From positions 992,001 through 1,056,000 of the forward strand of contig NC_013131.1 of NCBI RefSeq assembly GCF_000024025.1: a stretch of DNA of 64,000 nucleotides, written 5' to 3'. The position numbers were made by a program, and so were the translations under genes. Origin of the DNA: Catenulispora acidiphila DSM 44928 (GTDB lineage: Bacteria > Actinomycetota > Actinomycetes > Streptomycetales > Catenulisporaceae). Below the pieces are notes generated by a model. That model was not told where the DNA came from, ran no database searches, and saw only the letters and a program-made list of their open reading frames with translations. Below are positions 18,751 to 22,805 of this stretch, piece by piece (position 1 is the stretch's first letter; each line of letters begins with the position of its first letter).

Positions 18751-20550
18751 TTAGGCAGGTTTCCCAGCCCGAATCCACCGCTCGAAGACATCCGTCTTCT
18801 CCCTCGGCCAGGCGCCGTCGCACGGCATCGACCCTTGCCGGAGCCGGCCGAGGATCGCCTCGGCATGCCGACTGACGTCGTCGTGCGACCACAAGTCGAA
18901 GACGAACTTCATCGATCGCCTGTCCATCTCCCTGAACAGGGTCCTGATGTGTGCGTCGAAGCTGAGCGGCGCGTCGTTCGCGGGCAGCGTCATGACAGGT
19001 CCTTCCGGATTGGTTTGTACGGCGAGAGCGGAGACTCGGGCATCTGGCGTCGCGCCGCACACCCACCACCAGCGCGGTACCGGCATGTGCGGTGGCGGGT
19101 GGGCGCCCGGCTGGGAGTTCTCCACGGCGATGCGCGAGCCCCACTCGATGTAGGAGACGAACGCCGCGCGGAACTCGGGGTCGCTCGGCAGCCCGGCTTC
19201 ATCAGCCGAGCGCACGATGAGCTGCGCCCAGCGCGCGCGCTGCTCCTCGCTGAGGCCCTTGCCCGCGTGCTGCCCGACCATTCGGTCGTAGCCGCCGTAG
19301 GTGTCGGTGTACACGGTCGGGCCGCCGAAGGTCTCGCCGAGCCAGGCCGCCACGCGTTCCGGATGGTCCGGCGACATGTTCGCGAAGATCGGCGCGAGCA
19401 GCGGATCGGCCGGTACGTGCTTGGCGTAGAAGATCCGCGTCATCCTGGTCAGCGCCGGCAGCCCGCCGGCCCACTGGAAGAGCGTCGGCTCCGAGGGCGC
19501 GGGCGGATCCTGGAAGTCGACGTACCAGTGCATGCCGCTGCAGAACGGCTTGTTCTGCGACTGCCCGCAACGGCACAAGCTGTAGTGCTCGGTCGAGGAT
19601 CCCGCATTCCGCGGCTCCGGCTCGCCGTCAGCACCGGTGAGCGGAATCGAGCCGGTGACCCGGTAGGGACCGTCCTTGGAGACCTCAATCGCCGCCGGCC
19701 GATCCTGGTCGACTTGTTCCCGGGCCTCACGGTCGTCGATCGCAAAACTCAAGGCGCCCGACGGACACGCCCGAACCGCCCGGACGATCTCGTCCATGCG
19801 CCCCCCGCTCGGCGCCACGAAAGGCTCCTGGCCCTGACGGAACACGGTCGGAAGACGGTCGGTGCACAGCCCCGAATGAGCGCAGATCCCGCGATTGTCC
19901 AGGACGGTGACCTGCTGCCCGGGATACGTGTCCCGCCGATCGGCCACGCGTGCCGGACTCTTGGCGCCGCTGAAGCCGTTCGTCGCATGCGCGCCGTCGC
20001 AAAACGGCTTGGTCGCCGAGCCTCCGCAGCGACACAGCGCCATCTGCGGACGCAGCGGCAACGGCTCCCCTAGCCAGGTGGTCAAGTGGCTGGCATTGGT
20101 GACGAGGTAGGGACCATCCTCCGACGCCTGGATGCTGGTCGGCAGATCGCCCTGTAGCGCGGCCAGCCGTGCGATGCGTCCGGCGACCACCGCAGGATCG
20201 GGAACTAGCCGACAGGCTAGGTCCTGAAGTGCCGCAGTAGCCTCGATCAGCGGAGCGGGCACGCCAGTGGTGGCGCGCAGCCGGGTGGCTTCCTGGGTGA
20301 GACGCCAGAGCTCGGCGTCGATCGACGGCTCCTCGGCGGTAACGGGGTCGTCGAGCGTTCCGGCTACAAGAAGAGCCAGAGGCCTGATAACCGATCCGTT
20401 CAGCTGCACCGAGGCGCCGCGGAGCAGCTCGGCGTCGATCTCGCCGTCATAGGTTCCGGACAAAGCATCGGCGACGCGGCGCTCAAGCCGGCGCGCGCCC
20501 GCCAGCAGCGCCGTCGGGGTGGTCAGGTCGGTGTCGTTACTCGTAGTCAT
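18751..20550 (-). CDS. CDGSH / ferredoxin / CDGSH / truncated-globin fusion protein
   Basis: A 599-residue cytoplasmic redox protein from the ATG at 20550. Order: an N-terminal helical region (1-140, unrecognised); a CDGSH [2Fe-2S] motif CRCGGSATKPFCDGAH starting at Cys173; a single-cluster ferredoxin-like segment with CAHSGLCTD (Cys223) and RACPSGAL (about 223-265); a second CDGSH-type motif CRCGQSQNKPFCSGMH from Cys326, with Ser in place of the motif Asp; a group-II-like truncated hemoglobin (about 350-485) with proximal-His segment GQHAGKG (His428); and a C-terminal helical segment (about 515-599) of unknown family. Long upstream starts are unlikely because they run through the promoter. 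It is divergent from a TetR gene. Likely role: electron transfer or NO/O2 chemistry (inference). Confidence 0.9.
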   Translation of the reverse strand: MTTSNDTDLTTPTALLAGARRLERRVADALSGTYDGEIDAELLRGASVQLNGSVIRPLALLVAGTLDDPVTAEEPSIDAELWRLTQEATRLRATTGVPAPLIEATAALQDLACRLVPDPAVVAGRIARLAALQGDLPTSIQASEDGPYLVTNASHLTTWLGEPLPLRPQMALCRCGGSATKPFCDGAHATNGFSGAKSPARVADRRDTYPGQQVTVLDNRGICAHSGLCTDRLPTVFRQGQEPFVAPSGGRMDEIVRAVRACPSGALSFAIDDREAREQVDQDRPAAIEVSKDGPYRVTGSIPLTGADGEPEPRNAGSSTEHYSLCRCGQSQNKPFCSGMHWYVDFQDPPAPSEPTLFQWAGGLPALTRMTRIFYAKHVPADPLLAPIFANMSPDHPERVAAWLGETFGGPTVYTDTYGGYDRMVGQHAGKGLSEEQRARWAQLIVRSADEAGLPSDPEFRAAFVSYIEWGSRIAVENSQPGAHPPPHMPVPRWWWVCGATPDARVSALAVQTNPEGPVMTLPANDAPLSFDAHIRTLFREMDRRSMKFVFDLWSHDDVSRHAEAILGRLRQGSMPCDGAWPREKTDVFERWIRAGKPA

Positions 20551-20626
20551 CTGCGTTCGGTCCGAATCATGGAGGTTCCTCGGGTGTCCGTGAGGGCAAC
20601 ACGACTTATCAATACGGTACAGGTGT

Positions 20627-20651
20627 GTATTGCATGGATACAATTCAGGGG
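20627..20651 (+). promoter_or_regulatory. Divergent promoter region with inverted repeat; leaderless -10 for the TetR gene
   Basis: TGTAT-N7-ATACA (20627-20643) is an inverted repeat in the short gap between the divergent genes. TACAAT (20639-20644) is a good -10, six bases before the GTG at 20651. TetR binding here would control both genes. Confidence 0.5.
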
Positions 20652-21289
20652 TGCACCCAGGGAGAACGCCACAGGTCGGAGGCCGCTCAGCGGGCCAGGG
20701 GCGGGCCCGTGACAGCACCATCGACGCCCGCATCCTCGCAGCGGCCAAGCGCCAGCTCGCGGTGCTCGGCTACGAAGGGATGTCGATCGCGGCGGTCGCA
20801 GCCGAGGCCGGCACCACCCGGCAGGCCCTCTACCGCCGCTGGCCCAGCAAAGCCGACCTGGCCGGCGCCGCCGTCGCGAGCGCCGAGGACGCGCCGACGG
20901 ACCCGCCGCGCGAGTCCCCGGGCATCGCCGACCCCTTCGCCGACCTGGTCGCCGAACTCACCGACTTCCAGCGCGGCGTCTCACGCCCGGGTCGTCTGTC
21001 CCTGGTCGGCACGATGCTCCAGGACAACACCGAGCGCCAGGTCCGCGAACGCTACCAAGCCCGCGTCATCCATCCGCGACGCCGCCGGATCGCCGCCATC
21101 CTGCAAGCCGCCCAAGACCTCGGCCTGATCGACCAGGACGCAGACCTCACGGTCGCTGTAACGATGTGTACCGGCAGCTGGTACGGCCGCGCCCTGGCCG
21201 GCGACCCGGTCCCCGCGGACTGGCCGACGCGCACCGCCGCGCTCGTGTGGCGTGCCGTCGGCGGGGATGTCCGCAGAACAGGGCACTGA
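20651..21289 (+). CDS. TetR-family transcriptional regulator
   Basis: About 212 residues from the GTG at 20651; a TTG at 20630 is possible but lies inside the promoter. The helix-turn-helix is MSIAAVAAEAGTTRQALYRR followed by WPSKADL, typical of TetR. The C-terminal half resembles the TetR_C domain seen in relatives with AAAILQAAQDLG-like helices. It is divergent from the iron-sulfur/globin fusion with an inverted repeat between, so that gene is its most likely target. Inducer unknown. Confidence 0.9.
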   Translation: MHPGRTPQVGGRSAGQGRARDSTIDARILAAAKRQLAVLGYEGMSIAAVAAEAGTTRQALYRRWPSKADLAGAAVASAEDAPTDPPRESPGIADPFADLVAELTDFQRGVSRPGRLSLVGTMLQDNTERQVRERYQARVIHPRRRRIAAILQAAQDLGLIDQDADLTVAVTMCTGSWYGRALAGDPVPADWPTRTAALVWRAVGGDVRRTGH

Positions 21290-21449
21290 TCCAGTCACGG
21301 GCGTCCAGCCAGCAATAATCGTGTTCTTACCGAGATTTATCAGAGTCTTGCATCGCTGAGTCGACTGGCCGACGATGGTGCGGTGCGGGGCCATGGGGGC
21401 CGAGCTCCGTCGGTGCGAGGGGGCGGTGGCGATGGCGATAGCTGGACCG

Positions 21450-22805
21450 ATGGTCGAGACGGTGCTCGGCGGCGTGCGGATGACGGACCGGATCGTCGTG
21501 CCCTTCGAAGGTCCCGGTGCTGGCATCGGTGAGCTGACCTGGGGGCAGCAGAAAGTCTGGACCCTGATGCAGCAGGCCGGAACGTCGCTGAGCATGGGTG
21601 GCGCGGTGCCCGTGGCAGATGGCCGGACGGTCCAGGATCTGGCTGTGGAGCTTGCGTTTTTCATGTGCCGTTATGCATCGATGCGCGTCCGCATTCGGTC
21701 GGGCGAGGACGGCGCTGTGGTCCAGGAGGTGTCAGGCTCAGGCGCGCATGCGCTGGGCATAATCGACGTCGCGGACGACGAGGACCCAGCTCTGACCGCT
21801 CAGCGCCTAGCGGACCAGTGGGACGCGACGCCGTTCGATCACGCGCAGGAGTGGCCGATCCGGATGGCGGCGGTGCGCGCGCGGGGCGTGGTGACTCACG
21901 TGGTCGTGACGATCTCCCATGTAGCTACAGACGGCGCCGGAATCGCTGTCATGCTCACGGATTTGGCCGAACGTGACCCGGTCACCGGCGAGCCGAAGAA
22001 CCCGGCGCCGACGATGGGTCCGCTGGAACTGGCCGCACAGCAGCGGACGCCTGCGGGGCAACGGCAGAACGAGGCTTCGCTGCGTCATTGGGAGCGCATT
22101 CTCCGCTCCGCCAGCCCGCTTCGATTCGGTCCGCACGTCGACCGTGGCGAGCCGCGTTACCGTCGCGCCTACTTCGAATCCAGGGCGCTGCACATGGCAT
22201 CGAAGGCAGTCGCCGCTCGGCTCGGCGCGCCGGAATCGTCCGTCATGTTGGCTGGCTACGCGGTGGTTGTGGCGCGGCTGACCGGGATCAATCCCTCGCT
22301 GATCCAGGTGGTCGTCAGCAACAGGTTCCGTCCCGGCATCGCGGACGTCTCGCATCCGTTGTCCGTGAACGGCTTGTTCATGGCGGACGCCGCGAACGTC
22401 TCCTTCGACGAGGCTGTCGAACGTACCCAGCGTGCCTCGGCTCTCTGCTCGAAGTACGCCTACTACGACCCGAGGCAGCTCGAAGAGCTGCGTGCGCGCA
22501 TTAGTGAGGAACGCGGCGACGTCATCGAGCTCTCGTGCCTGTTCAACGACCGCCGCCTCGGCGCCGATACCGACGTGTCCATGCCGGCGCCGTCCAGACA
22601 GGCGCTGGACGCTGCCCGGGACGAGAGCACTTTCCGCTGGGGCGAGCCGTTCGCCGAGTACCTCGACAAGCTGATGGTCCAGGTCAGCGCCACATCTGAC
22701 GCGGTCGAACTGGAAGTCCAGGTCGATACGCACCACGTCTCCGCAAACGAAGCGCGCGCGCTCGTGCTGGAGCTTGAGTCGCTCGTGGTGCGGGCGGTCG
22801 GTTAG
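21450..22805 (+). CDS. Stand-alone condensation-domain-like acyltransferase
   Basis: A protein of about 450 residues with the fold of NRPS condensation / acyl-CoA acyltransferase enzymes. The active-site HHxxxDG motif appears as ISHVATDGAG (only the second His of the pair is kept), and LMVQVSATSDAVELEVQVDTHHV lies near the end. No adenylation, carrier or thioesterase domain is attached or nearby, so it acts as a free-standing enzyme, perhaps ester- or amide-forming. Starts at 21375, 21450 or 21480 are possible; 21450 (MVETVLGGVRMTDR) is my choice, since the first 25 residues from 21375 look non-protein. A strong terminator follows. Confidence 0.78.
   Translation: MVETVLGGVRMTDRIVVPFEGPGAGIGELTWGQQKVWTLMQQAGTSLSMGGAVPVADGRTVQDLAVELAFFMCRYASMRVRIRSGEDGAVVQEVSGSGAHALGIIDVADDEDPALTAQRLADQWDATPFDHAQEWPIRMAAVRARGVVTHVVVTISHVATDGAGIAVMLTDLAERDPVTGEPKNPAPTMGPLELAAQQRTPAGQRQNEASLRHWERILRSASPLRFGPHVDRGEPRYRRAYFESRALHMASKAVAARLGAPESSVMLAGYAVVVARLTGINPSLIQVVVSNRFRPGIADVSHPLSVNGLFMADAANVSFDEAVERTQRASALCSKYAYYDPRQLEELRARISEERGDVIELSCLFNDRRLGADTDVSMPAPSRQALDAARDESTFRWGEPFAEYLDKLMVQVSATSDAVELEVQVDTHHVSANEARALVLELESLVVRAVG

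Follow-up and report, generated by a model that had tools for sequence, protein, structure and literature searches.

Flavohemoglobin (Hmp) carries a globin and an FAD/NAD reductase in one chain, and chimeras of a truncated globin with an ABM domain were reportedly described by Bonamore in 2007. To our knowledge, the electron source of many bacterial truncated globins is not known, and we know of no established electron acceptor for the prokaryotic proteins that combine CDGSH and Fer4_19 domains. Such an arrangement, with Fer4_19 “in the middle”, has been described for archaea, and the combination of CDGSH with a ferritin-like domain is named as well, in PMC5859297. The class II CDGSH-Fer4_19-CDGSH proteins contain the same three-module iron-sulfur cassette as the protein analyzed here but, unlike it, are not associated with a globin in the main text of that article. 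The cassette and the globin are each known already, as are the associations of CDGSH with Fer4_19 and with ferritin-like domains; a description of a globin-CDGSH fusion, or of an exchange of heme for a ferritin-like domain, was not found in the open literature, searched largely by titles and the beginnings of abstracts.

The window analyzed here is a 64,000-nucleotide stretch of the soil bacterium Catenulispora acidiphila DSM 44928 (positions 992001-1056000 of one 10,467,782-base contig) that encodes a fusion of this cassette with a globin (Table 1). The chain comprises a helical bundle, CDGSH, Fer4_19, CDGSH, a group II truncated globin and a 75-residue C-terminal domain, and the AlphaFold2 model of the full protein, built from a 42-row alignment, has a mean pLDDT of 89 and a pTM of 0.79. 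The initial annotation, made from the sequence alone, gave the reading frame, the coordinates and the named residues correctly, as rechecking of the frame and its translation showed. Its count of four modules captures the order CDGSH, Fer4_19, CDGSH, globin, which Pfam reproduces, but there are six regions; the two ends that it called unknown are both helical, as it said, but the N-terminal one may be weakly ferritin/Dps-like and the C-terminal one partly matches a domain of AsqI. Like flavohemoglobin, the window protein appears to unite a globin with an electron-supplying part, whereas the FAD/NAD reductase is absent: a Pfam search at E up to 1 found neither a flavin or NAD(P)H reductase domain nor an ABM domain, and its sole additional match, Fer4_15 (E 0.17), lies under the cut-off and overlaps Fer4_19. 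Pfam also yielded no PF12902 match and no hemocyanin or tyrosinase core in this protein. The combination suggests an undescribed oxygen-using redox enzyme, and with the globin and the iron-sulfur cassette on one chain, the question of electron source and acceptor becomes directly testable.

Table 1. Features of the fusion locus, in positions of the window
Feature	Positions	Strand	Residues	Remarks
Fusion protein gene	18751..20550	(-)	599 aa	ATG 20550, stop 18751-18753; full length in 7/10 same-genus genomes
N-terminal helical bundle	20146..20550	(-)	1-135	AlphaFold2 model; no Pfam match
First CDGSH domain	19966..20136	(-)	about 139-195	C173, C175, C184, H188; Pfam and ligand conservation
Fer4_19 mono-cluster domain	19744..19926	(-)	209-269	C223, C229, C262; His225 adjoining; Pfam
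Second CDGSH domain	19525..19674	(-)	293-342	C326, C328, C337, H341; CSGMH; Pfam
Group II truncated globin	19105..19494	(-)	353-482	Tyr375, Phe389, His428, Trp441; Pfam, PDB 5d1v 1e-10
C-terminal helical domain	18754..18978	(-)	525-599	AlphaFold2 pLDDT 90; partly like the AsqI C-terminus
Inverted repeat	20610..20632			CAATAC-N11-GTATTG; candidate TetR operator
Divergent TetR-family regulator gene	20651..21289	(+)		probable start GTG 20651; longest frame from TTG 20630

The distribution of the fusion was assessed at several depths. A full-length match is present in seven of ten genomes of the genus, the other three being 77-90% complete, and in three of the 394 genomes sampled from the class, one of them being the window genome; in a sample of the phylum, at E up to 1e-100 and with the best three candidates per genome scored, the window itself was the sole match among 396. 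Scanning genome contigs for the peptide patterns PRWWWVC and MPCDGAW returned 147 relatives, from which 80 loci were kept. These span Actinomycetota, Chloroflexota, Bradyrhizobium and other Pseudomonadota, together with metagenome-assembled genomes (MAGs) labelled Acidobacteriaceae, Gemmatimonas, Dormiibacterota and Eremiobacterota; the nearest named relatives are Catenulispora species (C. rubra, C. pinisilvae and C. pinistramenti). The cassette and the globin share one frame in 69 of the 80 loci. Seven further loci have a globin frame without iron-sulfur modules, which were not found in the flanks at E 1e-12 either, and six of these seven retain the C-terminal domain. The remaining four were left out: in L102 and L136 the sequence is divided between two frames, L144 is a partial match, and L145, which lacks the globin and may represent a deletion or a misassembly, was not counted. 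The initial annotation had proposed to examine how far the domain order has spread, and had allowed for homologs split into unrelated genes that a sequencing error joins here. These four loci are what could be cited for such an error or a chance join, but the frame is uninterrupted in the seven same-genus genomes and in the 69 scan loci of several phyla, so that this explanation is rejected as scarcely credible.

Among the 69 one-frame members, the residues expected to hold the cofactors are conserved, with the proviso that the counts are biased upwards in the C-terminal part because both scan patterns sit there. Pfam assigns zf-CDGSH (PF09360) to two stretches (E 1.3e-32) and Fer4_19 (PF06902) to the segment between them (E 2.1e-17), all above the curated cut-offs, which bears out the two CDGSH motifs noticed at the outset, the second with Ser338 replacing the motif Asp, and identifies the one-cluster ferredoxin-like segment as Fer4_19 (residues 209-269). 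The CDGSH ligand pattern C-x-C ... C-x3-H (3Cys-1His) occurs twice, and 11 of the 12 Cys/His positions of the iron-sulfur region are invariant in 69/69 (C173, C175, C184, C223, H225, C229, C262, C326, C328, C337 and H341). The twelfth, H188 of the first CDGSH, is kept in 65/69, and the Cys that replaces it in L087, L088, L090 and L113 could create an all-Cys site.

The globin is equally recognizable (Bac_globin, E 9.3e-08 at residues 356-455, over the curated cut-off), and its model superimposes on 5d1v with a VIA-align Z of 15.7 and an rmsd of 1.9 over 121 aligned residues, with group II chains among its best-ranked matches. Tyr375, Phe389, His428 and Trp441 are kept in 60/60 heme-type members; we take His428 to be the proximal histidine F8, Trp441 to be G8 and Tyr375 to be B10. 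Fold match, Pfam and residue conservation thus agree with the earlier assignment of a group-II-like truncated hemoglobin with His428, and since the ligands are conserved, the predicted iron-sulfur and heme sites are well supported. In the other nine of the 69 members (L113, L120, L122, L123, L125, L126, L127, L128 and L141) the proximal histidine is lost, with no His at all in the segment from the GGP/GAP motif to the Trp, and the two of them put through Pfam (L122 and L123) gave no globin match; a wire to a heme therefore cannot be the whole story of this family. The closest globins are those of the ABM-globin chimeras: in 36 of these the globin is 51-61% identical to that of the window protein, two such genes lie elsewhere in the window genome, and in a quick midpoint-rooted tree the two sets occupy neighbouring sides (SH-aLRT 99 and 92). 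The chimeras are fused to ABM, whereas the family described here is fused to the iron-sulfur cassette, with ABM either absent or encoded by a separate, overlapping gene. Among viral structures, the full model had a single match at E < 0.001, BFVD A0A481YUA7 of Marseillevirus LCMAC102, which covers part of the model (42% identity, 77 columns, E 5.4e-5); an Edafosvirus globin followed at 1.5e-3.

The two ends of the protein are less readily classified. Residues 1-121 of the bundle align with Dps and ferritin-like chains at Z 10-11, a value below the tool's safe level for helical bundles and thus only weakly suggestive of a ferritin/Dps-like bundle. No Glu/His metal motif was seen on inspection of the bundle sequence, and the region is absent in 21/69 members. 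For the C-terminal domain, a profile of 48 copies matched AsqI of Aspergillus (PDB 5yy2), aligning positions 4-53 of 75 with residues 659-710 (E 1.3e-4 for the whole sequence, 3.3e-4 for the best stretch). PMC6053404 describes AsqI as a hemocyanin-like cyclopenase; the zinc-binding hemocyanin-like core of AsqI is absent from the window protein. Adiponectin, ranked first in the same profile search (7.4e-5), is not a credible match, its score being the sum of three 7-bit repeats. A Foldseek search with the C-terminal model did not list AsqI (best match E 5.5), and Pfam searches with the 48 copies returned nothing credible (best E 0.0042). A reading of this domain as a cytochrome c that has lost its heme, with DRxSM standing in the place of the absent CxxCH motif, is tempting but no more than an idea, cytochrome c-551 being only third among 41 aligned chains, at a Z of just 2.0. 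In a genome of the same order, a tyrosinase-domain gene adjoins the gene for a 166-residue protein whose C-terminal domain is 42% identical to that of the fusion over 64 residues (L049:1392-3234).

An additional ferritin-like domain precedes the bundle in 12 members, found by profile search, with frames of about 1050-1210 residues; in the two long forms put through Pfam (L122 and L123) it was assigned to PF12902. The domain is complete in eight of the nine heme-less members. In the ninth, the MAG-derived L128, the first 41 ferritin-like residues continue without a frame break into the final portion of the bundle, and because of this remnant and the lost heme histidine, L128 has neither centre intact. 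Four members that keep the heme site possess the domain too (L087, L088, L090 and L133), helix 1 lying outside the frame in L133. Eleven Glu/His columns are common to the eight heme-less rows and a distant 551-residue protein, these columns having been picked because all eight rows share them. The extra domain may bind iron. In two heme-keeping members, L083 and L143, from Ktedonobacteraceae and Dictyobacteraceae, six of these ferritin-like positions (E16, E62, E163, E215, E218 and H228) are replaced in both, and four (E18, H19, H65 and E117) are kept in both. Taken together with the heme-less members that have the ferritin-like domain, these losses indicate that both possible oxygen-reactive sites are subject to decay, each in certain lineages. 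The correlation of heme loss with the ferritin-like domain rests on one or two events, given that the heme-less rows form one group on the globin tree, possibly through long branches, and need three changes, at least two by starred branches, on the tree of the iron-sulfur and C-terminal parts.

The 551-residue protein just mentioned (L063; L064 is alike) provides a link to the described ferritin-like combinations: it has the order ferritin-like (PF12902), CDGSH, Fer4_19, CDGSH, that is, the same cassette order as the fusion, with 37% identity over 201 residues, but lacks the globin and the C-terminal domain, and its Fer4_19 match of 22.1 bits falls just under the cut-off of 24. Within the fusion family, the cassette and the C-terminal domain stay the same, and the globin heme site and the ferritin-like domain vary. 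An undescribed family of modular oxidoreductases may be imagined, with a fixed iron-sulfur wire and C-terminal domain, exchangeable oxygen-reactive heme and ferritin-like centres that decay reciprocally where they are not used, and an ABM enzyme coupled translationally in some lineages; this picture is possible, though we would not rate it as probable. If such an exchange is real, an oxygen-reactive centre can be swapped while the electron supply stays fixed.

The regulation of the gene can be followed across loci. The divergent regulator noticed initially is confirmed by Pfam (TetR_N, 4.6e-13; TetR_C_11, 5.5e-13), and the choice of its probable start is based on homologues. TetRs 64-82% identical to it stand beside 13 other fusion loci of Catenulispora, Nonomuraea, Embleya and one MAG, and this supports the proposal that the fusion is under its own dedicated regulator. 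Five unlinked TetRs show 29-39% identity over just 49-141 residues or no match, and the TetR linked to L122 is just 34% identical and is not divergent. TetRs 71-74% identical to that of the window also stand divergent to ABM-globin genes in a different genus of the family, in two of its genomes, a further likeness of the fusion to these chimeras. The inverted repeat noted between the two genes is present as well. Its 23 bases recur identically in L066, L052 and L054; L053 and two Embleya loci have near-copies, and L089 has a TAATAC variant. In Nonomuraea the sequence is TTACAATGCTGTAATGTAA or differs from it by one change, and at the ABM-globin locus L055 it is ATACAATACTGTATTGTAT, with a weaker relative in L056, likeness being judged throughout by direct sequence comparison alone. 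Two other Catenulispora loci, L067 and L068, have not kept the repeat intact.

An ABM gene lies in the fetched flanks (696 kb in total) of 11 of the 80 loci and was not found in those of the other 69; at the density of the window genome (7 matches in 10.47 Mb), about 0.5 would be expected, a rough figure given that the loci are not independent and that the profiles and thresholds differ. In eight of the 11 loci the stop codon of the ABM gene shares the sequence ATGA with an ATG that is in frame with the fusion, and the gene caller picked this ATG as the fusion start in five. ABM is upstream with other genes between in L132 and on the other strand in L082 and L143, and it is absent from the 100-base intergenic stretch of the window. 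On an ABM tree from which L143 was left out, nine of ten solo ABMs cluster (SH-aLRT 83), and the C. rubra one is placed with the ABMs of the ABM-globin chimeras (SH-aLRT 95); because of this grouping, the pairing of the fusion with ABM seems to have arisen twice.

Besides ABM and TetR, the neighbours named include HxlR and MarR regulators, RidA, a Rieske oxygenase, alpha/beta hydrolases and a BBE-type FAD oxidase. HxlR-type genes occur in 23/80 loci, among them 19 of Bradyrhizobium, L101 and L134, and lie farther off in L130 and L099; a MarR-type group occurs in three loci, and RidA-like and Rieske-like groups in 18 and 17, respectively, with Pfam run on one member of each of these three groups. 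In the Bradyrhizobium members (L104-L119, L121, L129 and L135) the N-terminal bundle is missing and an HxlR-type gene lies divergent to the fusion; in most of them RidA-like and Rieske-like genes are near.

The reading that we favour, tentatively and at slightly less than an even chance, is that of a TetR-controlled soluble oxidoreductase in which an iron-sulfur wire leads to an oxygen-reactive site, for the oxidation or detoxification of a small molecule. Module order, ligand conservation, gene linkage and the decay of one or the other centre are direct observations; we infer cluster and heme loading, the direction of the electrons, the metal in the ferritin-like domain and the class of substrate. 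An outside reductase would supply the electrons, as the window protein has no recognizable flavin or NAD(P)H domain. They would enter the CDGSH-Fer4_19-CDGSH wire, two 3Cys-1His 2Fe-2S sites around a three-Cys mono-cluster, and be handed to an oxygen-reactive metal site of the same chain. In the window protein the receiving site would be the heme of the group II truncated globin, and electron flow to it is plausible; longer relatives possess an additional ferritin-like domain of the PF12902 type, and in them the heme can be lost. The reaction would most likely use O2 to oxidize or detoxify a small molecule, perhaps an aromatic or quinone-like one, with an ABM-type enzyme possibly working alongside in some lineages. 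This class of substrate is perhaps indicated through guilt by association. The conserved ligands, the loss of one or the other centre, the pairing with ABM, the kinship with the globins and TetRs of the ABM-globin genes, and the C-terminal domain partly shared with AsqI and found beside a tyrosinase gene speak for this reading. Weighing against it are the one or two events behind the heme-loss correlation, L128 with neither centre intact and four members with both, the globin frames that lack iron-sulfur modules, the many loci without a nearby ABM, the members without the bundle, and the absence of a fused or adjacent reductase in the window.

The initial annotation had offered the handling of NO as an example of what the protein might do, which would make it an NO dioxygenase or reductase resembling flavohemoglobin, with the iron-sulfur cassette in place of the FAD/NAD reductase. 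A truncated globin of group II that has Tyr-B10 and Trp-G8 would suit this role, and the iron-sulfur modules could re-reduce the ferric heme, but the subset of neighbours put through Pfam includes no NO-specific gene, leaving the proposal without specific support, and nine of the 69 members have lost the proximal histidine while keeping the iron-sulfur sites. We regard NO detoxification as rather unlikely; judged by the neighbours, oxidation of a small, perhaps aromatic, molecule is more likely. CDGSH proteins elsewhere take part in cluster transfer, and a non-catalytic role in handling or sensing iron, clusters or heme is also conceivable, with the cassette as a NEET-type cluster store or carrier and the bundle and globin as sensors of iron or gas. 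The ferritin/Dps-like character of the N-terminal end of the window protein would fit, as would the service of CDGSH proteins in electron transfer elsewhere (PMC5859297). The heme-pocket residues retained in all 60 heme-type members and the overlap with an ABM enzyme gene in eight loci point to catalysis instead, and we consider the handling or sensing role unlikely.

For the oxidoreductase that we prefer, one possible electron source is suggested by gene arrangement. In L052 (5340-8760), genes for ApbE, a ferric-reductase-like membrane protein and a NuoF-like NADH/FMN protein are convergent to the fusion, and the same convergent set is found in L053, L054, L059 and L060, making five other Catenulispora genomes, with Pfam run on L052 only. 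In the window no reductase is fused or adjacent to the gene, and the ApbE/NuoF-like set is not adjacent there. The TetR gene of the window is adjoined on its far side by a gene for a stand-alone condensation-domain protein (21375-22805; PF00668, 1.1e-12), homologues of which occur close to this locus in two further Catenulispora genomes.
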